Source: Chlorobiota bacterium
GTDB taxonomy: Bacteria; Bacteroidota; Bacteroidia; Bacteroidales; F082
Assembly (NCBI GenBank): GCA_013151215.1
Contig: JAADIS010000121.1
Coordinates: 1 to 64,000, forward strand
Length of the DNA: 64,000 nucleotides
Reading direction: 5' to 3'
The notes under the pieces were generated by a model, which saw only the letters and a list, made by a program, of their open reading frames with translations, had not been told where the DNA came from and did not search any database. Shown here piece after piece: positions 2,934 through 21,729 of the stretch (the stretch's first letter is position 1; the number at the start of each line of letters is the position of its first letter). The position numbers were made by a program, and so were the translations under genes.

Positions 2934-5056
2934 AATCTCAAGCTCAATCCTATGCGCTTCTTTTGTATGTCAACGGATACTATTTTAAGTTTAAGCTGTT
3001 GGTTAAGGAACAAATGCTCCGAGGGGTTGCTTACGTAGCTATCTGCTATCTGGCTTTTGTGAAGCAGTCCGTTTTCTTTGATGCCTATGTCGATGAACGC
3101 ACCGAAGTCGGTAATGTTTGTAACCATTCCGGGAACTGTCATTCCAACCTTCAGGTCTTCCATTGTTCTTAAATCGGGATCGAACTCAAATATCTTATGT
3201 GCTTTGCGCGGATCCCTGCCTGGTTTTTCCAGTTCGTTGATAATATCCCTTAATGTGGGGATGCCGATATTTTCATCGACATATTCACCGATCTTTATCT
3301 TGCTTAGTAATTCCCTATTGCCTATTAATTCTTCGGCTTTAAAGCCGAAGCTTTTGGCCATTCTATTTACCAGTGCATAGCTCTCGGGATGGACAGCACT
3401 GGCATCCAGCGGGTTTGTGCCATTCTTTATCCTTAAAAAGCCCGCTGACTGCTCGAAGGCCTTAGGCCCTAAGCCCTTTACTTCCTTCAATTGCCCCCTT
3501 GAGGTGAAGTTGCCGTTTGAACTTCGGTGATGAACGATGTTTTGGGCAAGGTTCGGGCCTATTCCGGAAATATATCGTAACAGTTCGGCACTGGCCAAAT
3601 TGAGGTCAACACCAACTGTGTTTACGCAAAGCTCAACCGTTGTCCTCAAACCCTCGGCAAGCAAATTCTGATCAACATCATGCTGGTATTGCCCAACACC
3701 AATTGATTTGGGGTCGATCTTCACAAGTTCGGCCAATGGGTCTTGTAATCGCCTACCTATTGATACAGAGCCTCTTACGGTAATGTCATAATCAGGGAAT
3801 TCCTTTCGGGCTAAGGCAGAGGCCGAATAAATGGAAGCCCCGTTCTCGTTGACCATTATGGCAATAACATCTCTGTTGAACCTGATTCGTTTTATAATGT
3901 TTTCCGTTTCCCTTCCGGCAGTTCCGTTCCCAATGGCTATGGCATCAATTTTATAAGCATTTACAAGGCTGTTGATCTTCTTAATTGCCAAAGTTGTTTG
4001 ATTTTGAGGTGGATGTGGGTAAATTGTCTCGTTGGCCAAAAGATTACCGTTCTTGTCGAGGCAAACTAGTTTGCAGCCGGTTCTGAAACCCGGGTCTATG
4101 GCAAGGATGTTTTTCTGCCCGAGGGGAGGGGCAAGGAGTAATTGCCGTAAGTTCTCAGTAAATACTTTTATGCTGCTTTCGTCGGCTTTTTGCTTTAGTT
4201 CCTTTCTGTACTCTGTTTCCAGCGATGGAAATAATAAACGTTTTATGGAATCTGCCAAAGCGATTTCTTTTTGTTCCGAAGCCTCGTTGGCTTTCCTTAT
4301 AAGCTTATGCCGCAGTTGAGAAAAGGCTGTCTCGAAATCAGGGATTACCTTGATTTTCAATATCCCTTCATTCTCACCCCTGAACATTGCGAGTATTCTG
4401 TGTGCCGGAGCCTTGCCTGCCTGCTCATGCCAATCAGAATAGGATTCGTATTTTGATGCCTGCTCAGTGTTTTTCTTGCTGATTCTCGAGGAAATAGTTG
4501 CCGACCGCCTAAAAAGCCGTCTTAAATCATGTCTGACAAAGCCTTTCTCGCTAATCCATTCTGCTATAATATCCCTGGCGCCCTGAAGTGCCTCTTCAGG
4601 AGTGGCAACGTCTTTTTGCTCGGAGACAAACCCACTTGCGGCATTCATCAGCTTGTTGATGTTCTCAGACATTATCATTTTTGCCAATGGTTCCAGTCCT
4701 TTTGAAATAGCAATGGTGGCCCTGGTTTTTCGTTTCGGGCGATAGGGCAAGTAAATATCCTCGAGTGCGTTAAGGCTTTCGGCACCGCCAATCCCTTGTT
4801 TTAATTGGTCGCTAAGTAAGTCCCTTTCGCTCAGGCTTTTAAGTATTGTATTCTTTCTTTCGGCAAGTGCTAAAAAAACCTTATTTAGTTTCTCTATCTC
4901 GATAAGTTGAAAATCAGTAAGCTCACCTGTTTTTTCCTTTCTGTAGCGGGCAACGAAAGGAATGCTTGCCCCGGACGCGAAAAGCCGCAAGGTATTTTCC
5001 ACTTGCCATTGGTCAATGTTTATGGCGAGGGCAATCTTATCAGAAAACGAGTTCAT
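2930..5056 (-). CDS. tex: Tex family RNA-binding protein (S1 domain)
   Basis: The 708-residue product has the full Tex architecture. An N-terminal helical Tex domain comes first. A YqgF/RNase H-like domain follows around residues 325-450 (ILAIDPGFRTGCK). Then come helix-hairpin-helix segments (YISGIGPNLAQNIVHHR and LKEVKGLGPKAFEQ) and a C-terminal S1 RNA-binding domain (VGMTVPGMVTNITDFGAFID). Tex is a cytoplasmic nucleic-acid-binding factor linked to transcription and RNA metabolism. It starts 15 bases after the T9SS gene ending at 5072, so read-through is possible. It converges on the GT87 gene with overlapping stop codons. Confidence 0.95.
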   Translation of the reverse strand: MNSFSDKIALAINIDQWQVENTLRLFASGASIPFVARYRKEKTGELTDFQLIEIEKLNKVFLALAERKNTILKSLSERDLLSDQLKQGIGGAESLNALEDIYLPYRPKRKTRATIAISKGLEPLAKMIMSENINKLMNAASGFVSEQKDVATPEEALQGARDIIAEWISEKGFVRHDLRRLFRRSATISSRISKKNTEQASKYESYSDWHEQAGKAPAHRILAMFRGENEGILKIKVIPDFETAFSQLRHKLIRKANEASEQKEIALADSIKRLLFPSLETEYRKELKQKADESSIKVFTENLRQLLLAPPLGQKNILAIDPGFRTGCKLVCLDKNGNLLANETIYPHPPQNQTTLAIKKINSLVNAYKIDAIAIGNGTAGRETENIIKRIRFNRDVIAIMVNENGASIYSASALARKEFPDYDITVRGSVSIGRRLQDPLAELVKIDPKSIGVGQYQHDVDQNLLAEGLRTTVELCVNTVGVDLNLASAELLRYISGIGPNLAQNIVHHRSSNGNFTSRGQLKEVKGLGPKAFEQSAGFLRIKNGTNPLDASAVHPESYALVNRMAKSFGFKAEELIGNRELLSKIKIGEYVDENIGIPTLRDIINELEKPGRDPRKAHKIFEFDPDLRTMEDLKVGMTVPGMVTNITDFGAFIDIGIKENGLLHKSQIADSYVSNPSEHLFLNQQLKLKIVSVDIQKKRIGLSLRF

Positions 5057-13529: not shown

Positions 13530-14669
13530 TTACTCGATAAAAGCAATGTCGCCTGGTATGATGCCTGCCTTGAAAGAGGTGATCAACTTTCCTTCGGCCG
13601 AATACCTGAATATGTCGCCGCTTTTGTTGTAGTCGTTGGCATCGCCCACGTAAATTTGGTTTTTGTTGCTAATTGCCAAAGTGTAAAAGTTAAGGTTTTC
13701 GCCAGCAACAATTAATGGGGTAACAGGTATCGAATTGTCGTTTACCGACATCGAATAAACATCTTTGTTGATGAAATAGAGGCTGTCGCCAGCAGGGTTG
13801 ATGGCCAAGTCTGTTGGCGAAGTGCCGATGTCGTCATACTCTAGGGTTTTTAAAACTTTATGGGTCGAAGAATGTATCTTCCACAAACCAGGCTTCTCTT
13901 CATTCATAAAACCCCCGCTGCACAAAACCCAGATATTGTCGTCCTTATCGATGACCATGCTGTTGGGCTCTTTTCCAACTACTACCGAATCAACAATTTG
14001 CATGCTTTGAATGTTCAGTACCATAAGCATGTTGTTCTCTGCTTCCTGATTGTATGCCGACCAGTTCGTGATAAAAACCTCATTGTTTTTCAGCAATAAA
14101 TTCTCCGATGTCCTGCCGATATTTATTTTTGACAATATCGTCATGTCGTCGATGTTTATCAAAGTGAGCTTGTTTTCGTATAGATCACTAACTAATGCCT
14201 TGCCCTCATCTATTTTCAAAAAATTCCTGGGAGATGTGAGCTGATCGATTTTCGCATTGTAAATACCTGTTTTCGCATCTATTTTAAAAACTGTATGCGA
14301 ATTGTTGACAGTAATGAATATGTAGCCGGTTCCTATGAAGATACTATTGGCGACATCGCCCAAAGGCGCGTTGTTCTTACGATAAAAAACCTGCTGTATA
14401 AGTTCATCTGTCTCTTGGTTGTAATAAGTCAGCGATGCGTTGCCGGCTGTGAAATTCCCCTCGTTTACTATAAAAACAGCATGCTCCAACTCTCCGACAG
14501 GGAGAGGGGCTTGATTTTTGTCGCATGAGCCGAAAATTAATAAAATAGCAATAATAACTGCCAGGGTTTTAATGGTAGTACAATTTATTATGGACCCCGT
14601 CCCGCAACTCATGCCCAAAACCAAATTATTGAACTTCCTTAAAATTATTTTAGTAAAACGCTTAAACAT
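13530..14669 (-). CDS. YncE/BtuG-like beta-propeller lipoprotein
   Basis: The 379-residue product has a long N-terminus, then a hydrophobic segment ending IFGSC at about residue 49, a lipobox that predicts a surface or periplasmic lipoprotein. The rest is a run of YncE-like propeller blades (KIDAKTGIYNAKIDQL, LINIDDMTILSKINIG, VLNIQSMQIVDSVVVG). Bacteroides BtuG is a seven-bladed beta-propeller lipoprotein that binds cobalamin very tightly at the cell surface and hands it to BtuB. The fold, lipobox and position directly after a BtuB-like gene in a cobalamin-riboswitch operon support the same role here. The ATG overlaps the btuB stop by one base (TAATG), which implies translational coupling. 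Confidence 0.75.
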   Translation of the reverse strand: MFKRFTKIILRKFNNLVLGMSCGTGSIINCTTIKTLAVIIAILLIFGSCDKNQAPLPVGELEHAVFIVNEGNFTAGNASLTYYNQETDELIQQVFYRKNNAPLGDVANSIFIGTGYIFITVNNSHTVFKIDAKTGIYNAKIDQLTSPRNFLKIDEGKALVSDLYENKLTLINIDDMTILSKINIGRTSENLLLKNNEVFITNWSAYNQEAENNMLMVLNIQSMQIVDSVVVGKEPNSMVIDKDDNIWVLCSGGFMNEEKPGLWKIHSSTHKVLKTLEYDDIGTSPTDLAINPAGDSLYFINKDVYSMSVNDNSIPVTPLIVAGENLNFYTLAISNKNQIYVGDANDYNKSGDIFRYSAEGKLITSFKAGIIPGDIAFIE

Positions 14670-16627
14670 TATTTTGTATTAAAACCTAAAAATGCCTCCA
14701 GATATCTTCCCGGCATTGGCCTCCAAAGTATTGCCTGATACGAGACATTAAATATATTATTTATTTTTATCCTAAGATTTAAACCGAATTTCTTAAATCC
14801 GAACTTCCTCCCTATCGACATGCTGCTCAAAAAATAAGCGGGCAATGTGTTGGAATACAGCGTCTCGCCGTCGAGCGAAGTATTTCTTTTGCCTATGAGC
14901 TGGGTGTTCCAGCTGAAACTGTTTTGCTCGTGTTTTAAATAAATGAACAAGTTTGCAGACTGCAATGGAACATAAATCAGTTGCCTTCCTGCATATCCGG
15001 CGTTTTCTGCTTTTTCGCTTTCGTTAGTCGATCTGTTCAATGAATATTGCGTGGAAAACTTATAGAAAAAACCTCTTGTGTTTCCCGATAGGCTGATACT
15101 GGTTTCCAATCCCCTGGCATGAACACTTTCGACGTTTCGGGCAGTCCAATATCTATAATCGCTTGGAACCCATTGTATCCAGTTGGAGATCTGCGAATTG
15201 TAAAAGCTAATGTCGAACCCTAGGTCAAATGACTCGGAAAATGATTTTGCGTAGTTCAGCCCAAGGTCGAACTGCATTCCTTCCTCAGGCAATAGTTCCG
15301 GGCTTCCACCTGGGAACCAGTATAAATCGTTTAATGAAGGTAGGTTATAATTTAAGTTTACTGATGCCCTTATGTAGATCTCCTCTTGTTTTAACGGTTT
15401 TACGGATAATCCTAAAAATGGTATGATGGGAAGGAACCTATGTTCGGAATATTGCTGGCGCAGCAAAAAATCCATAACAATAGCTTCGGAGAATTTCTTG
15501 TTTAGTTTAAGGTATAGGCCGTAATTCTCCCTCGATTTAATGCCATTATAATTATTCGAGTTCACGGAAAATAAACTTGCTGACAATTCTGCCGAAATAA
15601 TCCAGCCTTTGCTAAGATTGCGGTTTAATTTTGTTTTGAAAAAGCCCGAGCTGCTTTTGTTTGTGGAGTTTATGAACGTTACGGTGTCTTCGTAGTCGGT
15701 GGCCGCAGTTGTCTTCAACAAATAATTCATGTCGTCGTAAAACCAAGCAGCCTTGGTTTCGACAACTGTTCTCGACTTCTTGTATTTATACGAAACAATG
15801 TTCCTGGAACTAAAATCCCCCTGATGCTCCTCATTGTTTCCTACCTCCGCATTGCTCATGACCAAGGGTATCTCCCGATAATTCCATTGATTCCACGATT
15901 GCACTTTGACGGAATGATGTTCCGAGATCAAATAATCGAATTCCTGCACGAAACCTCTGTTGTAGTACGAGGCATTTTCCTGCTTCTGCCATTCGGGAGG
16001 GATGACGGCATTGTTATAGTAAGAGAACGAGTTTTCGGATGAATTTAGATAAACCGATGTGCCTGAGGTAATTTGCTTGAATTTAAGGTTTACTTTAAGC
16101 GTTGTGGTGAAAGTATTAAAACTACCGAAGCCCTGATTGAGTTCAACTTTGTTTGAACTAATGTTACTGCCTGAGTATAAGTTGATTGCCCCGCCTAAGG
16201 CCCCCGAAGTGCTTTTAATGGAACTGCCGCCATAATCAAGTTGTGCCTGATCGAAGAATGCATTTGGCACCAGCGATAAGTCAACTTGACCGAGCATGGG
16301 CGAATTAATCTCGAAATCGTTCCATAAAACTTTAGTGTGCGAAGCAGCCGTACCCCTGAAGGCTGCCGTGGCCAGACTGCCTTTTCCGTACGACTTGACG
16401 AAGATCGGGCTTTCGGCCCTAAGCAGCTCCCCAAGGTCCAAATGGTCTAGATCCTGCTTTATCAGAGTATCTATCTGCTGCGATTTCGTTGTTGAGCTGC
16501 GTTCGACGAAGTTTGACATAACTACCATCTCCTCCAAATTCAATGTGTCGAATATCATTTGTGCTCCTGCCGGAAGGCTCGGCAATAGCGATATGAAAAT
16601 GAGGATATGTTTGATGGTTTTTAGCAT
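14669..16627 (-). CDS. btuB: TonB-dependent cobalamin receptor, BtuB-like
   Basis: The 652-residue outer-membrane receptor has a signal peptide ending LPAGAQ and a plug domain at about residues 50-160 (LGELLRAESPIFVKSYG, then GTAASHTKVLWNDFEINSP, ALGGAINLYSG). A beta-barrel follows, ending in the aromatic terminus LEAFLGFNTK. It lacks the carboxypeptidase-like extension of SusC proteins, which fits a small-ligand transporter. Specificity for vitamin B12 is inferred from the riboswitch that heads the operon and from the BtuG-like neighbour. It starts 6 bases after the preceding T9SS gene and overlaps the next gene by one base. No BtuFCD inner-membrane transporter is in the window. Confidence 0.85.
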   Translation of the reverse strand: MLKTIKHILIFISLLPSLPAGAQMIFDTLNLEEMVVMSNFVERSSTTKSQQIDTLIKQDLDHLDLGELLRAESPIFVKSYGKGSLATAAFRGTAASHTKVLWNDFEINSPMLGQVDLSLVPNAFFDQAQLDYGGSSIKSTSGALGGAINLYSGSNISSNKVELNQGFGSFNTFTTTLKVNLKFKQITSGTSVYLNSSENSFSYYNNAVIPPEWQKQENASYYNRGFVQEFDYLISEHHSVKVQSWNQWNYREIPLVMSNAEVGNNEEHQGDFSSRNIVSYKYKKSRTVVETKAAWFYDDMNYLLKTTAATDYEDTVTFINSTNKSSSGFFKTKLNRNLSKGWIISAELSASLFSVNSNNYNGIKSRENYGLYLKLNKKFSEAIVMDFLLRQQYSEHRFLPIIPFLGLSVKPLKQEEIYIRASVNLNYNLPSLNDLYWFPGGSPELLPEEGMQFDLGLNYAKSFSESFDLGFDISFYNSQISNWIQWVPSDYRYWTARNVESVHARGLETSISLSGNTRGFFYKFSTQYSLNRSTNESEKAENAGYAGRQLIYVPLQSANLFIYLKHEQNSFSWNTQLIGKRNTSLDGETLYSNTLPAYFLSSMSIGRKFGFKKFGLNLRIKINNIFNVSYQAILWRPMPGRYLEAFLGFNTK

Positions 16628-16633
16628 TACATT

Positions 16634-17641
16634 TTATTTATGTAATATTCTTTTGTAAATCAATAAGCTGCCGCTTTCGATCCGCAGTATCAGCAATCCT
16701 TTTGGAAGAGATGAGCCGGAAAGGCTGAAATTGCTATCAGCACACTTCGAGGAATAAACTAGTCTTGAATTCAAGTCGAAAATGCTAATGACGGAGTTTC
16801 TCTCTATTTTCCCTATATTCAGGACATTGGTAAATGGGACAGGATAAATAATTATCTCTTGACCGCTGATTTTGTCAACTGCAAGGTGCTCCACGTCATT
16901 GATTATGCCAACGGCATCCAAATCGAATCCTGATGACTCGAATGGGGTAGGCCATGGATCGTTGATTTTGTTTCCTTGGGAATCATGAGACGCATAAGCG
17001 TCGGCAAGGCTGCCAACAACATCCACTATTTTTATGTATCTGATGTTCTGAACATCCAGGTCGTCAGAATATTGCAGTTCGTTTAAATCGAAGGGGGTGC
17101 CGTATCCACCTCTGTATTTCCCGGCCATATTATACAGTTTAGTGGCATCAAGCGTGCCGAAGGTCGCTATTTGCTCAACGGTTTGAGTATTGGAAACAGA
17201 AGGGAAGCCCACAAAATCTACCCCATCCGAACTTACCTCAACAAAAGCAAGTTCCAGGAAATCATCGTTGAAGGAGTTTTCGAATACCGCAAAATCATTG
17301 CCCGGGCCGTCAACAATGGGCGTGGAAAAATATAATATCGCCGACCCGCCGTCGCCGAGGCTCACTACTCCCTTATCCGCAAAACCGTAGGCCGAGCTGT
17401 CCGAGCCATAAGTTGCCAAGCCCAGACTCGCGTTGCTCATATCAACAAAGCCCCTGTTGATCAGGCAACTATCTGCCCAATTCACAAAAATCGAACTATC
17501 GGCTTTTATGGCCGTGCTGCCCACTTGTCCGGCCGGAGGCGCAAACTGCGCCGATGCCGGTATTTGAAAAAGTAATAATATCGGGGCAATTCCCATAAAT
17601 AGGAACCGCCCGATATTATTAATTGTAGTTGAACGATTCAT
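16634..17641 (-). CDS. Secreted T9SS type A protein of the cobalamin operon
   Basis: The 335-residue product has a signal peptide ending IPASAQ and a beta-rich domain (GDGGSAILYFSTPI, GPGNDFAVFENSFNDDFLELAFVEVSSDG) found in Bacteroidota surface proteins. It ends in a T9SS type A sorting domain (IIIYPVPFTNVLNIG, SLPKGLLILRIESG, YKRILHK). The body contains acidic loops that could bind calcium. I do not recognise an enzyme. Its place between a propeller protein and BtuB under a B12 riboswitch points to cobalamin capture or handover at the surface, an inference from context. Its ATG overlaps the previous stop by one base (TAATG). Confidence 0.75.
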   Translation of the reverse strand: MNRSTTINNIGRFLFMGIAPILLLFQIPASAQFAPPAGQVGSTAIKADSSIFVNWADSCLINRGFVDMSNASLGLATYGSDSSAYGFADKGVVSLGDGGSAILYFSTPIVDGPGNDFAVFENSFNDDFLELAFVEVSSDGVDFVGFPSVSNTQTVEQIATFGTLDATKLYNMAGKYRGGYGTPFDLNELQYSDDLDVQNIRYIKIVDVVGSLADAYASHDSQGNKINDPWPTPFESSGFDLDAVGIINDVEHLAVDKISGQEIIIYPVPFTNVLNIGKIERNSVISIFDLNSRLVYSSKCADSNFSLSGSSLPKGLLILRIESGSLLIYKRILHK

Positions 17642-18903
17642 TAATTTTTAATAAACCTTGATGAAGCCCTCGAATTGTTGCCCATGATATTTATGAAATA
17701 AACCCCGGGATCCAAATTGCTTATATCTATCCTGTCAGAAGCATCGCCCTGATAAACTATGCTTCCCATTACATCAACAATATTGATTCTTTGTATGTTG
17801 AACCTGGTTTTAGTTTTTATCCGAATGAAATCAGTGGCCGGATTCGGGAATAATGAAATCATGCCCTCCTCGCTTATCCTATCGGTCCCGCTGTTTAAGC
17901 GATAGTCAACAGCGATGGCCTGGGCTGAGATACCTGCATCGAACAATCCGGTTTGCGTTCCGCCCAGGTCATAAATAAAACCATCGCCTGAGGAGAAAAA
18001 ATCGCTTGTCGTCAGGTAAATCATATTGTTTAGAGTATCGATCGTCGAGGCTGCTATGCTTGCCGCCTGAGGGTCAACGATCATGTTCATCTCGTCGCTG
18101 TTCATATCATAAGCGGCAATTCCGTTGTTAAGCTCAACATAATATTTATCTTGAAACTGACCAGTTCCGTTTGCCAGTACAGCATTTGTAAATGTTGTTT
18201 CGGCCAAAACATTTCCTTCGTTGTCAAAACTGGCAACCTTAGCCGTGCTGTCGCCCCAGGCTGTTTTCATAAAGCTGAAGATGATATCGTTATAATAAGC
18301 AAAATATCCGATACCGGCATAAAAATCACCATAATCATCTTCCGACAACAGAGTGTTCTCAGCTATGTCGATAGCGGCAATTTTACCCGTGGTGCTTCCC
18401 CATCCGCCCGGAACGGCAACAAGAGCCACACCGTCATTTATCAATATTCCGGCTGCTTCGCCAGAAACCCCTTCTATGTTTGATATAAGAGTTAAGTCAT
18501 CGAGAGAGAATATCCTGACGAAGTTTTCTGTTACTGGATACCAGAACGAGGCGATCAGGACATTGCCGTCGGTCGCAAGTTGATTGATGCCGGAAGCTGC
18601 TACCGAGGCCACCTTCTCATAAGTATCGATGTTGAGCTTAACAATGGAATCTTGTGCTGCAACATAAGCATAGCCGTCATTGATGATCACATCCTGTACC
18701 GATTGGGTATAAATTGTCGCAAATTCGTTTGTGGTTTGGGTTTCCAGGTCGTAGGACGCCACTGTTACGTAATCGTCGGCATTGCCGAAATCGCCACCAT
18801 TGACAAAAATAATTTGTTTGGTGTAGTTTGTCTGCGCATCTGCGCGAAATGCTGAAAGGGCTATCGCAAGCACCATCAGACTTAAAAAGTAAATCTTTTT
18901 CAT
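17641..18903 (-). CDS. Secreted T9SS type A beta-propeller, first gene of cobalamin operon
   Basis: The 420-residue product has a signal peptide (MKKIYFLS to FRADAQ) and a YncE/DUF5074-like propeller of about 300 residues (VTVASYDLETQTTNEFATIY, IVKLNIDTYEKVASVAASG, RIFSLDDLTLISNIEG, KIAAIDIAENTLLSED). It ends in a T9SS type A sorting domain (LFPNPATDFIRI, LDPGVYFINIMG, SSRFIKN). It appears to be a T9SS-exported counterpart of the lipoprotein propeller at the end of the same operon, so a second cobalamin-binding protein is the natural hypothesis. The longer frame to 18948 starts inside the leader hairpin; ATG 18903 directly precedes the signal peptide. Confidence 0.8.
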   Translation of the reverse strand: MKKIYFLSLMVLAIALSAFRADAQTNYTKQIIFVNGGDFGNADDYVTVASYDLETQTTNEFATIYTQSVQDVIINDGYAYVAAQDSIVKLNIDTYEKVASVAASGINQLATDGNVLIASFWYPVTENFVRIFSLDDLTLISNIEGVSGEAAGILINDGVALVAVPGGWGSTTGKIAAIDIAENTLLSEDDYGDFYAGIGYFAYYNDIIFSFMKTAWGDSTAKVASFDNEGNVLAETTFTNAVLANGTGQFQDKYYVELNNGIAAYDMNSDEMNMIVDPQAASIAASTIDTLNNMIYLTTSDFFSSGDGFIYDLGGTQTGLFDAGISAQAIAVDYRLNSGTDRISEEGMISLFPNPATDFIRIKTKTRFNIQRINIVDVMGSIVYQGDASDRIDISNLDPGVYFINIMGNNSRASSRFIKN

Positions 18904-18955
18904 AAAAAAAAGTTTTAAGGAATTATTAAAAAAATTAATTAACCTCAAAACTTTT
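18904..18955 (-). terminator. Leader hairpin with T-tract, likely riboswitch expression platform
   Basis: On the minus strand a 13-bp stem (18943-18955 with 18908-18920, one G-T pair, 22-base loop) runs into eight T that abut the start codon at 18903. It could terminate transcription or hide the ribosome-binding region. It lies between the B12 aptamer and the first gene of the operon, where an expression platform is expected. Confidence 0.65.
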
Positions 18956-19031
18956 CAGGAAGAAACATTATGGAATGTTAAAAAAACATCACCAAGCCAT
19001 TATCCCGAAAGCTTTGATAAAATACAGTATT

Positions 19032-19200
19032 GGCAGGTCTTCTGACTTACTCCGCTTTCGAGGCCTTCCCAATCCCGCAACATGCGGGAAAAGTGACCAA
19101 GGGTTCGAAAGCATAAAGAGCTTACAGCAGCGGGAACTGTACAGGATTTACACCTGTTTCCCTATTATACCACCTGCATGGTCGTGCAGGAAATGGTACC
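19032..19200 (-). promoter_or_regulatory. Cobalamin riboswitch (adenosylcobalamin aptamer)
   Basis: Read on the minus strand this stretch carries the conserved cobalamin aptamer elements in order. These are GGTACC, AATAGGGAA, GGTGTAAATCC, CAGTTCCCGCTGCTGTAAG with the invariant CCCGC..CTGT core, a variable hairpin (CCCGCATG/TGCGGG) and the B12 box AGTCAGAAGACCTGCC at the 3' end. It lies about 130 bases before the start of a four-gene operon with a BtuB-like receptor and should turn the operon off when B12 is plentiful. Confidence 0.95.
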
Positions 19201-19211
19201 AAAACTTGCAG

Positions 19212-19219
19212 CAAAAGTA
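19212..19219 (-). promoter_or_regulatory. -7 element of the riboswitch-led operon
   Basis: The minus strand reads TACTTTTG (TAnnTTTG) about 12 bases before the aptamer, placing the transcript start right at its 5' side. No convincing -33 element was found. Confidence 0.5.
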
Positions 19220-19662: not shown

Positions 19663-21729
19663 TTATTTCACGATAAGCTTGGTTGTGCTGATACCTTGAC
19701 CGGAAAATATTCTTATTAAATACACACCCGGATTCAAGGCTGATACATCAATTGCCTTGCCGGTAGGAATTGAAAGCGAGCTGACTAATTTGCCATCTTG
19801 GCTTATAACCTCCATTTTATTTATTGGAATGTTTAATTCGTTCTTCAAATAAATAATGTTTTCTGCAGGATTTGGATAAACACTTATAGAAGGATCGTTT
19901 GTTGAGATATCGCTTACATCCAATAAATCGGAATTTATCGCCATAAGGTTATACATTCCCCCAATCCATGAATTTGTATTCACGAATGATGCGCAAAATG
20001 CCGATTGACTTAATGTTTGATGTTCTGTCCAGTTGTAACCGCCGTCATTGGAATAATATATCTGGTTATGGTCAATCAGGTAGCCTCTATTATCATCAAT
20101 GAAATGGAAAATGGCATTATATGATAAGCCTAGCTCGAATACCTTTTCCCAATTGTTGCCGCCATCGCTGCTACGATATACATATCCGATTTCAGTTATA
20201 ATAAAGCCGATATTTTCGTTGATGAAATAAATTTTTGAAGGCACATAAGTGTGATTAGGGTCAACTTTCATGCTAGTCCAATTATTACCACCGTCGGTCG
20301 TTCTCAATAAAAAACCGCTATAATCGTCAACTAGCCAGCCGAAGGTATCGTCATAGAAATATGAAATGGAAAATTTATGATAGTCGTCGAATTCTATTTT
20401 GTCCCAATTATGACCACCATCGGTTGTCTTGTACAATGTGGAAGAGTCATCGCATAAATATGCAGTGTTTTGACTAGGAACTGAAAAATCGTTGAAATAC
20501 GCTCCTTCAGCGGGAGGAAGGTTTAGAGTTTCCCAGTTTTCGCCCTCATCTATGCTTTTTAACAGTTCGTTTTGGAAACTTATAAGGAAAAGCGTCTGCC
20601 CTGCCAAACGTAACTCATAATACCGTTGTTCAGGTATCAGTAAATTGTCTTCCCAAGTATAACCTCCGTCATTGCTTATTAGGGGTTTTGTTGCCATGCT
20701 ATAACCACCTAAAGCAAATCCTTTGCTTTCGTTTAGAAACTCTATTTGTTTGAAATTCAGGGGGTCGACATATAGTAGCCTTTGCCATTCGTTGCTTTCT
20801 TCCGGGATATTATATATGCTGCTTTTATCTCCGCAAGCATACAACTGGCTTCCGCTAAGGGAAATGTCCCTTAAACCCCCGCTATATGGAACCGCTTTAT
20901 AAGCGCTCCAGCTTATACCGTTATCGGTAGTTTTATACAGGGTGAAGCGGTCCATTAAATAGCCTGTTTGGTTTTCCCCGAATTCAATATCGATAAAGTA
21001 GTTCTGATCAAAACTTTTGTCTGTCCATGTTTGACCAAAGTCAGTCGATTTAAACAATTGGCCTCCTTTTCCACAAACAAATACCTCGTCTTGATCGTTA
21101 ATGGCAAGGGATAGAAAAGCAGAAGTAGAGGCCGGGCCTGTCTCTGTCCAGTTAAGTCCGCCATCGCTGGTGGTCATTATAATTCCACCGTAATTTTGCT
21201 TGACACCGCATAATATACCGTGATCTTCATCAAAGAATTTTACGGAATTGTAAACAGTTTCACCACCGATAGAATTTGATATTTTCTGCCAAGTCTGGCC
21301 GCCATCGGTTGTTTTCAGTATTATCTTATACCAGCCTACGATCCAGCCGTTATCCTGGTCAAGGAAGAATACGTCATTAAAGTCCCCTAAAGTTGATGGA
21401 TGGCTTTGGGATTCCCAGTTTTGACCGGCGTCGGTAGTATGAAGAATATCATTCCATCCAACAACCCATCCTTCGGTATCGTTTATGAAATATACCGAAT
21501 GAAATGATTTGTCAGTGTTATGGTATTGCAGACTCCAGCCAAGTCCTTCATCTGCAGTATGTTGTATAATACCGTTCTGGCCAACGGCCCAACCGCTACC
21601 CGTATCGTTGAAAACACAATGGTTTAGAGCACCATAAGGTTGCTGGGTTTGAACTTCTTGCCAGTATCCTTGGGAGTAACTGAGCATGATAATGCTTAGG
21701 AAGATAATTGTTGATGATACTTTTTTCAT
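19663..21729 (-). CDS. Secreted T9SS type A protein with Asp-box (YCF48-like) repeats
   Basis: The 688-residue product has a signal peptide ending MLSYSQG. About ten Asp-box blades follow (TTDGGQTW, TSDGGLNW, STDFGQTW, TTDNGISW, SNDGGYTW, SIDEGENW, TTDGGHNW, TTDGGNNW, SSDGGNNW, SNDGGYNW), as in YCF48/HCF136-like and sialidase-fold propellers. A T9SS type A sorting domain closes it (VYPNPAENIIYLKN, LNPGVYLIRIFSG, TTKLIVK). No sialidase catalytic set is apparent, so it is likely a binding or scaffold protein at the cell surface. A tiny secreted ORF lies 37 bases upstream. The gene ends at a bidirectional terminator. Confidence 0.85.
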   Translation of the reverse strand: MKKVSSTIIFLSIIMLSYSQGYWQEVQTQQPYGALNHCVFNDTGSGWAVGQNGIIQHTADEGLGWSLQYHNTDKSFHSVYFINDTEGWVVGWNDILHTTDAGQNWESQSHPSTLGDFNDVFFLDQDNGWIVGWYKIILKTTDGGQTWQKISNSIGGETVYNSVKFFDEDHGILCGVKQNYGGIIMTTSDGGLNWTETGPASTSAFLSLAINDQDEVFVCGKGGQLFKSTDFGQTWTDKSFDQNYFIDIEFGENQTGYLMDRFTLYKTTDNGISWSAYKAVPYSGGLRDISLSGSQLYACGDKSSIYNIPEESNEWQRLLYVDPLNFKQIEFLNESKGFALGGYSMATKPLISNDGGYTWEDNLLIPEQRYYELRLAGQTLFLISFQNELLKSIDEGENWETLNLPPAEGAYFNDFSVPSQNTAYLCDDSSTLYKTTDGGHNWDKIEFDDYHKFSISYFYDDTFGWLVDDYSGFLLRTTDGGNNWTSMKVDPNHTYVPSKIYFINENIGFIITEIGYVYRSSDGGNNWEKVFELGLSYNAIFHFIDDNRGYLIDHNQIYYSNDGGYNWTEHQTLSQSAFCASFVNTNSWIGGMYNLMAINSDLLDVSDISTNDPSISVYPNPAENIIYLKNELNIPINKMEVISQDGKLVSSLSIPTGKAIDVSALNPGVYLIRIFSGQGISTTKLIVK

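Follow-up and report, generated by a model that had tools for sequence, protein, structure and literature searches.

In a 64,000-nt stretch of DNA (the window), four same-strand genes behind a cobalamin riboswitch probably form an operon for the capture and import of B12 under scarcity, in which a BtuB-BtuG system would be joined by two further B12 binders, P4 and P3, exported by the type IX secretion system (T9SS). Some microbes make B12 and many more depend on it, so the way in which it is caught shapes which microbes can live together. Judged by sequence and predicted fold, P3 and P4 resemble known B12-binding proteins and probably catch B12 outside the cell.

Organization of the operon and its leader

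The genes lie on the reverse strand at 17641-18903 (gene 1), 16634-17641 (gene 2), 14669-16627 (gene 3) and 13530-14669 (gene 4) and encode, in order behind the riboswitch, the two T9SS-tagged proteins P4 and P3, then BtuB and a BtuG lipoprotein. As read from the sequence, genes 1 and 2 overlap by one base, as do genes 3 and 4, and a gap of 6 bases separates genes 2 and 3. A first-pass annotation had described a riboswitch heading four coupled genes, and the common strand, these junctions and the riboswitch score given below bear this out. The mechanical ORF list started gene 1 at TTG 18948; because this codon falls inside a leader hairpin, we replaced it with ATG 18903.

The riboswitch aptamer (19016-19218, reverse strand) scored 94.6 bits on the full RF00174 model (1-189), for which the gathering score is 31.5, and was the sole match in the 3.7-Mb assembly, which is 98.6% complete. 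At its 5' edge, TACTTTTG (19212-19219, reverse strand) is a candidate promoter element read from the sequence; it fits TAnnTTTG, which we take to be the Bacteroidota -7 promoter motif. The TTTG at this edge was near-constant across 26 aligned riboswitches, a count that covers TTTG and not the full motif. Sigma-70 and terminator scans yielded matches no more numerous than in shuffled sequences.

Downstream of the aptamer, a hairpin at 18911-18952 (reverse strand) precedes a U run and the gene 1 AUG. The 118-nt leader had a minimum free energy of -28.1 kcal/mol (z -4.5), equalled by 0 of 200 shuffles, a figure that spans two hairpins, of which that at 18911-18952 is the second. A terminator scan based on G+C content did not pick up this hairpin. 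We consider it a candidate expression platform that could act by termination or by masking the start codon.

Genes 3 and 4 are predicted to encode BtuB and BtuG

The 652-aa product of gene 3 contains a plug domain and is predicted to be BtuB, the TonB-dependent B12 transporter. Its nearest solved relatives were the BtuB proteins of B. thetaiotaomicron (5e-73), and all four PDB matches at E 0.001 were BtuB-type; the match to TIGR01779 (1.7e-16) was nevertheless below the equivalog cut-off. Gene 4, a 379-aa ORF, is predicted to encode BtuG, the surface B12-binding lid lipoprotein. It had BtuG as its nearest solved relative (3.7e-59), scored 50.9 bits against DUF5074 (cut-off 27.2 bits) and carries a lipobox-like motif, IFGSC, that aligns with VFGSC of BtuG2. 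The earlier reading of these genes as a BtuB-like receptor and a BtuG-like propeller lipoprotein therefore stands. Judged by eye, the long N-terminus of the gene 4 ORF suggests that translation may in fact begin at a Met further downstream.

The arrangement is similar to that of the B12 loci of B. thetaiotaomicron, which also place btuB, btuG and additional B12 binders together with a riboswitch in a single operon. By contrast, the accessory surface proteins there are predicted lipoproteins, whereas two of the three here are T9SS cargo.

Both early genes carry T9SS sorting domains

The C-terminal sorting domain of P4 occupies residues 351-418 (17650-17853, reverse strand; PF18962, Por_Secre_tail, 3.4e-13; TIGR04183 1.1e-12, 47.8 bits) and that of P3 residues 265-331 (16649-16849, reverse strand; PF18962 2.3e-8; TIGR04183 1.1e-7, 31.7 bits). 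All four matches were above cut-off, which for TIGR04183 is 23 bits, in agreement with the T9SS tags first noted on these genes. Our assignment of both proteins as T9SS cargo draws in addition on signal peptides, judged by eye in each, and on the presence of SprA in the host genome (SprA_N, 544.8 bits). Among relatives, the tail was called in 30 of 32 P4 ORFs and 108 of 119 P3 ORFs; at least two of the 11 P3 exceptions are truncated at a contig end, and by eye most of the 11 finish with a similar-looking tail.

Neither ectodomain had a Pfam or NCBIfam family above cut-off; the NCBIfam scan gave a LIC_13355 lipoprotein match (E 0.0012) far under its cut-off. Single-sequence searches of the PDB with P3 and P4 picked up the T9SS tail, a lipase that matched in the tail region of P4, and chance-level rows, and profile searches of the PDB with either protein gave chance-level matches and no B12 protein. 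Their kinship emerged through folds and via BtuH and BtuG proteins from other genomes.

P4 is a BtuG-like propeller

P4 (420 aa) was modelled over its ectodomain, residues 24-337 (17893-18834, reverse strand), with a pLDDT of 93.7 (AF2). The first-pass annotation had proposed a T9SS-exported beta-propeller and a structural comparison with BtuG. BtuG structures did come first in both fold rankings (Foldseek 1.5e-15, TM 0.82; Z 32.8), with BtuG1-3 (8BMZ, 3DSM, 8P97) matching over the full length; the first non-BtuG row had a Z of 29.6, so that the lead over other propellers is modest. Aligned with a BtuG profile, P4 gave an hhalign value of 98.7% over 293 columns; its identity with BtuG is 18%. 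Our working P4 and BtuG profiles cross-recruited (24/34 and 8/32 rows) and served solely to assign each ORF to whichever family scored higher; the case for kinship is made by the separate hhalign alignments and the folds. By these measures, P4 is a distant, full-length relative of BtuG.

We call P4 BtuG-like rather than BtuG: the relation is distant and the Pfam scan returned no DUF5074 match. A lipobox pattern occurred in 0 of 32 P4 ORFs, but it is a weak test, since it matched only 26 of 63 BtuG-like ORFs. By eye, P4 retains few of the aromatics singled out in BtuG2. Unlike BtuG1-3, P4 shows no lipid anchor and is therefore unlikely to act as a lid hinged on BtuB.

The operon also has BtuG proper, encoded by its final gene. 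The possibility that P4 replaces it was rejected, BtuG being retained in 26 of 32 P4 loci (8/10 and 18/22). Among the six loci lacking it, L072 and L109 end within btuB. The others, L036, L079 and L038/L108 (the last pair being one contig counted twice), do not end there, and in the genomes of L036 and L038 BtuG lies on another contig.

P3 is a divergent BtuH-like domain protein

The BtuH-like domain of P3 (335 aa) was modelled over residues 32-250 (16892-17548, reverse strand) with a pLDDT of 95.9 (AF2). In the structural comparison proposed at first pass, its top match was the B12 domain of BtuH2 of B. thetaiotaomicron (7BIZ; Foldseek 4.5e-4; VIA Z 12.3, rmsd 3.1, 157 aligned), followed by the BtuH domain of BtuG1 (8BLW; Z 10.9) and then by the first non-Btu entry (Z 9.8), which BtuH2 leads by 2.5. 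The operon context is likewise shared with these proteins.

Profile comparison points the same way. With hhalign, P3 and BtuH gave 93.2% over 50 columns (shuffles at most 2%), with a score of 53.6 against at most 22.3 across 30 column shuffles. The P3 profile matched four of 10 BtuH-domain ORFs (best 3.2e-8) and missed the other six; one BtuH-domain ORF was confirmed against 7biz at 7.2e-101. Conversely, a BtuH profile built free of P3 matched, besides BtuH, only P3 ORFs (25/119, best 1.4e-7), the window's own P3 not being among the 25.

The distant homology with BtuH2 centres on SLG..GG...DF...N.F. In BtuH2, the contacts with B12 include Asn399, to the phosphate, and Phe401 (PMC8941943). Asn399 aligned with an Asn of P3 in 77 of 77 rows and the nearby Phe401 with a Phe in 73 of 77; the invariant residue is Asn122 of P3, within FENSF. 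A Gln present in 48 of 77 rows came near BtuH2 Gln333 only under forced alignment, and the corrin contacts His476, Tyr510, Trp511 and Trp577 fall in stretches of BtuH2 that could not be aligned with P3. The part of the BtuH2 site that P3 can confidently be said to share is confined to the side of the nucleotide loop.

The models and alignments thus identify P3, which had been noted at first only as an unassigned T9SS partner, as a divergent BtuH-like domain. It differs from BtuH2 in being shorter (~220 versus ~270 aa) and in having no PKD modules; as it carries a T9SS tail in place of lipoprotein export, we name it BtuH-like rather than BtuH. Assignment to DUF4465 was considered and rejected (no Pfam match to PF14717; hhalign 0.4%). 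BtuK of B. thetaiotaomicron is a suspected relative.

The P3 and P4 families belong to the B12 regulon

In two sets of P3 loci, a riboswitch was present at 33/40 and 62/80, three of the 62 being weak calls of 26 to 36 bits, and btuB lay beside P3 in 28/41 and 55/80; these counts include loci near contig ends or without a transporter, and the survey statistics ignore shared ancestry. The 80-locus set comprises closest relatives rather than a random sample, and the two sets have at least three contigs in common. Left out of the 40 loci were G076 and G083, which are weak (~65 residues in ORFs of ~1000 aa), and two contig-end fragments from G014. One G014 contig bears a P3 fragment together with BtuB and BtuG.

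In seven loci, P3 was the sole labelled gene directly behind the riboswitch. The riboswitch was absent at 7/40 loci of the one set, and 11 of the 80 named loci of the other had neither riboswitch nor btuB, including L117, which has the full 6 kb on both sides. As for P4, 149 genomes yielded 13 P4-like stretches, 12 behind a riboswitch and one in a btuB-btuG operon. In this survey, which the first-pass annotation had suggested, the homologues were therefore not found mostly away from btuB or riboswitches; the P3 and P4 families belong to the B12 regulon.

P4 occupies a place held elsewhere by DUF4465 proteins

P4 stands where other operons have a DUF4465 (BtuJ) protein, and the two almost exclude each other. 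No locus had both (0/41 and 0/80). By genome, one had both, 11 had P4 only, 24 DUF4465 only and six neither (p 2.9e-5, a statistic that ignores shared ancestry); in the single genome with both, G089, the P4 stretch is divergent and lies within a BtuH fusion. No DUF4465 (PF14717) was found in the window's own genome. Fusions also occurred: P3 with DUF4465 in seven ORFs, and the P4 domain with a true BtuH domain in one ORF of 1437 aa.

We take IPR026444 to be a T9SS tag. DUF4465/BtuJ proteins (IPR027828) are proven B12 binders (PMC13398666, PMC12751083), and IPR026444 is reported on 229 of 824 DUF4465 proteins (PMC12751083). T9SS-exported B12 binders are therefore not wholly new. Like P4, the tagged BtuJ proteins are linked to riboswitches and adjoin P3; unlike P4, they were not found in this genome. 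Our literature searches found no T9SS BtuH-like or BtuG-like family, nor a propeller-DUF4465 exchange, in print. The initial suggestion that the T9SS proteins would add a B12-binding layer is well supported by comparison of sequences and models.

Proposed mechanism and alternative explanations

At low cobalamin, the riboswitch would permit expression of the four genes; at high cobalamin, the hairpin in the leader, ahead of the gene 1 AUG, would shut them off. BtuB and its BtuG lipoprotein lid would import B12 as in Bacteroides. P4 and P3 would exit by the type IX system, either to stay on the LPS layer or to be set free, and we infer that they capture corrinoids at a distance from the membrane and pass them to BtuG-BtuB. 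P4 fills an exchangeable slot that T9SS DUF4465 (BtuJ-type) proteins hold in sister operons.

That all four parts have Bacteroides counterparts would fit an ordinary BtuB-BtuG operon whose T9SS proteins are just accessory variants of the known BtuH and BtuG, little used and bringing no new behaviour. Known BtuG and BtuH are lipoproteins, however, and the conserved T9SS tail of P3 and P4 implies a different route and anchor, so we think this unlikely. P3 and P4 might instead belong to the B12 regulon and yet bind no free B12, acting as surface scaffolds, as partners whose docking opens the BtuG lid, or as binders of B12-carrier proteins. BtuK2 and BtuL of B. thetaiotaomicron lie in B12 operons and bound no cobalamin (PMC12751083), and no alignment that we made shows the corrin-side residues of BtuH2 to be conserved in P3. 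Set against this, the fold of P3 is nearest to a proven B12-binding domain and retains the phosphate-contacting Asn throughout, and P4 replaces a proven binder family; we judge non-binding to be improbable.

Glycan attachment, with P4 a generic surface propeller, P3 a generic galactose-binding-like (CBM32) module and their operon position incidental, is very improbable. CBM32 modules do come after BtuH when P3 is compared by fold (Z up to 9.8) and many propellers outside BtuG resemble P4, but the linkage to riboswitches in nearly all P4 cases and most P3 loci, including those where P3 stands alone, is hard to call incidental, the more so in a genome with one such riboswitch.

Should environmental Bacteroidota use T9SS to export B12 binders, capture could extend beyond the outer membrane and, unlike that by membrane-bound lipoproteins, may be shared or stolen. 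The main reading also proposes a function for two families whose ectodomains had no Pfam or NCBIfam assignment above cut-off, and the exchangeable slot offers a route to further B12 binders. More tentatively, many Bacteroidota may export B12-capture proteins by T9SS as LPS-borne or free 'cobalophores'. Such extracellular scavenging would be modular and separate from the lipoprotein-based capture of gut Bacteroides, and would pair a near-constant BtuH-like P3 with an exchangeable part: a BtuG-like propeller, a BtuJ-type DUF4465 protein or a transcobalamin-like DUF4430 protein. In favour of the main reading, CobS was not found in the host genome and seven matches to B12-binding domains were over cut-off.

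Organization and regulation of the operon

The only cobalamin riboswitch matched in the 3.7-Mb assembly lies on the minus strand at 19016-19218 (RF00174-type, 94.6 bits). Four packed genes follow on this strand: those encoding P4 (17641-18903) and P3 (16634-17641), then btuB (14669-16627) and btuG (13530-14669), as the first-pass annotation had described. The leader between the aptamer and the first AUG is stable (z -4.5 for the whole leader) and its second hairpin leads into a U run, which makes it a reasonable candidate expression platform. The simplest account of the operon is riboswitch-controlled capture and import of B12, with two of the three surface B12-handling proteins taking the T9SS route.

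A TAnnTTTG-like element at 19212-19219, which we take to be the Bacteroidota promoter motif, extends across the 5' boundary of the riboswitch model. Among 26 aligned riboswitch copies (alignment A3), the TTTG of this element hardly varies. Upstream of the riboswitch, on the same strand, 19663-21729 encodes a T9SS protein with YCF48/BNR repeats that appears to have no connection to B12.

P4 and P3 both carry C-terminal T9SS sorting domains scoring over the curated cut-offs, in agreement with their earlier designation as T9SS proteins, and the translocon gene sprA is present in the window's genome. In the same genome, CobS, which is one marker only, had no match, and seven matches to B12-binding domains exceeded the cut-off. 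The ORFs concerned include ones of 1224 aa and 726 aa, presumably the lengths expected of MetH and methylmalonyl-CoA mutase, respectively. Based on the CobS result and the seven matches, the host most likely requires B12 and takes it up from outside.

The nearest solved structures were BtuB proteins of Bacteroides thetaiotaomicron for the product of gene 3 (E 5e-73) and BtuG proteins for that of gene 4 (E 3.7e-59), which bears out the proposed BtuB-like receptor and BtuG-like propeller. The aromatic positions named for BtuG2 include Trp194, Tyr316, Tyr335 and Trp272 (PMC10404256). In an alignment judged by eye, gene 4 has the same residue at the first three and does not keep Trp272, which the BtuG3 row likewise lacks. 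By sequence, genes 3 and 4 are thus predicted to encode an ordinary BtuB and BtuG.

P3 contains a predicted BtuH-like domain

The P3 ectodomain matched no Pfam or NCBIfam family over cut-off; its likeness to the NCBIfam LIC_13355 lipoprotein, by name presumably a Leptospira protein, was weak (E 0.0012, far below cut-off). An AlphaFold2 model of P3 was generated from a 77-row alignment (pLDDT 95.9). Its top PDB match was the B12-binding lipoprotein BtuH2 (Foldseek 4.5e-4), which also supplied the only two chains at 1e-3 or better. Using VIA-align, BtuH2 again ranked first (Z 12.3, rmsd 3.1, 157 residues), followed by the H domain of BtuG1 (Z 10.9); the first non-Btu entry had a Z of 9.8. The comparison with BtuH that had been suggested therefore placed BtuH2 first by both methods, the region aligned by VIA falling inside residues 318-593, the C-terminal B12 domain. 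BtuH2 has been reported to resemble other folds, AlyQ among them, only modestly (PMC8941943), and the AlyQ CBM32 was also the row after the Btu entries in our ranking.

Profile searches linked the two families in both directions. The P3 profile matched four of ten BtuH-domain ORFs from other genomes (E 3.2e-8 to 3e-4), one of the ten being confirmed against 7BIZ (E 7.2e-101). A profile of these ten ORFs, containing zero P3 rows, matched among the ORFs compared, besides BtuH domains, only P3 proteins (25/119, best 1.4e-7; the window's own P3 was not among the 25). According to hhalign, P3 and BtuH aligned with a probability of 93.2% (score 53.6, 50 columns, 38% identity), as compared to scores of at most 22.3 (2.0%) in 30 column shuffles. 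Assignment of P3 to DUF4465, the BtuJ family, was rejected at 0.4% versus 93.2% for BtuH.

In BtuH2, Asn399 touches the B12 phosphate and Phe401 is near the lower ligand (PMC8941943). With residue numbering checked, both fall inside the block common to P3 and BtuH, where P3 has Asn in 77/77 rows and Phe in 73/77, respectively; the alignment covers this block, and the corrin-side contacts of BtuH2 are not placeable in P3. Together, the models and profiles indicate that the P3 ectodomain is a BtuH-like domain, for which B12 binding is predicted.

P4 is a predicted BtuG-like propeller

Apart from its tail, P4 had no Pfam match. The proposed comparison of its predicted structure (pLDDT 93.7) with BtuG returned BtuG entries as the top eleven by both Foldseek (1.5e-15, TM 0.82) and VIA (Z 32.8 to 29.8). 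With the next propeller at Z 29.6, BtuG leads by a modest margin. In hhalign, P4 and BtuG aligned in full-length register (98.7%, E 1.8e-16, 293 columns, 18% identity). By eye, the P4 consensus shares the DY that lies near the BtuG C-terminus (Tyr335 of BtuG2), and the window's P4 has DF at this place. P4 is thus probably a BtuG-like propeller, and B12 binding is again a prediction. Such a propeller could serve as a BtuB lid or as a capture protein; the latter is more likely since no lipid anchor was seen and BtuG is usually present too.

Association with cobalamin riboswitches and btuB

P3 matches (E 0.001) occurred in 44 of 149 genomes of the order, 42 of them strong (5.4e-37 or better). Set 1 comprised 40 P3 loci from these genomes, of which 33 had a cobalamin riboswitch: 31/38 using Rfam and 2/2 using our own model, built from 26 riboswitches of P3 loci. 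The remaining seven had none by either. With the window added, btuB was present in 28/41 loci. Set 2, the best 80 of at least 535 P3 relatives in a named collection (Bacteroidota and three Chlorobiota), shares at least three contigs with set 1, as their lengths indicate. Among these best 80, a riboswitch occurred in 62, always on the P3 strand (three weak), btuB in 55, and either in 69. The riboswitch was <500 nt upstream of P3 in nine of the 80 loci, in seven of which P3 was the sole gene among the tracked families. Eleven of the 80 had neither; in ten of these the contig stopped less than 6 kb away on one or both sides, and L117 had no such cut.

P4-like stretches (E 1e-15) numbered 13 in 12/149 genomes. 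Twelve had a riboswitch upstream on the same strand, including two (L166, L169) with no btuB nearby; the thirteenth (L049) was in a btuB-btuG operon. P3 was present in all 12 P4 genomes (p 7e-8, kinship ignored). The T9SS homologues thus occur mostly beside riboswitches or btuB, as the first-pass annotation had anticipated. One locus, L145, has two cobalamin riboswitches (2679-2885 and 4405-4610), each preceding a T9SS protein gene.

The slot beside P3 is exchangeable

The T9SS neighbour of P3 was a DUF4465 protein in 7/10 P3 operons tested. P4 and DUF4465 shared no locus in set 1 plus the window (n=41; P4 10, DUF4465 19, neither 12) or among the best 80 of at least 535 relatives (22, 29 and 29, respectively). 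Over 42 genomes with P3, one had both, 11 P4 only, 24 DUF4465 only and six neither (p 2.9e-5 for avoidance, kinship ignored). No DUF4465 was found in the window's genome. A third occupant, a DUF4430 T9SS protein, lies directly behind the riboswitch in L064 (6803-7963, minus) and L076 (4779-5963, plus). A similarly placed protein in L065 (2341-4209, plus), whose DUF4430 match is below cut-off, seems to join DUF4430 to P3. The slot appears exchangeable among P4, DUF4465 and DUF4430.

Fusions were also found. Seven single ORFs join P3 to DUF4465. In L165, a 1437-aa ORF truncated by the contig end (4222-8535) joins a true BtuH domain (residues 224-500; 8BLW, 1.4e-38) to a P4-like propeller (about 797-1139), one of the 13 P4-like stretches; in this fusion the upstream cobalamin riboswitch lies at a distance of about 760 nt.

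We assume that IPR026444 denotes the T9SS tag. Among BtuJ members, 317 of 824 have C-terminal extracellular targeting motifs, 229 of these with IPR026444 (PMC12751083). DUF4465 proteins are proven B12 binders (PMC12751083, PMC13398666), with binding across phyla and TonB receptors and PF16819 propellers as neighbours (PMC13398666). DUF4430 is found at the C-terminus of animal transcobalamins (PMC4350170), and BtuB-BtuG complexes (PMC10404256) and BtuH (PMC8941943) have already been described. In searches of open-access PubMed Central, we found no T9SS BtuH-like or BtuG-like family, no P4/DUF4465 exchange, and neither P3-DUF4465 nor BtuH-P4 fusions.

Six further T9SS proteins beside P3 have ectodomains with no Pfam family over cut-off: L032 5263-5982, L074 5228-5947, L034 4900-5940, L084 4175-5362, L048 6751-7896 and L096 4823-5971. 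All six loci contain a cobalamin riboswitch, and these proteins may represent additional B12-binding families.
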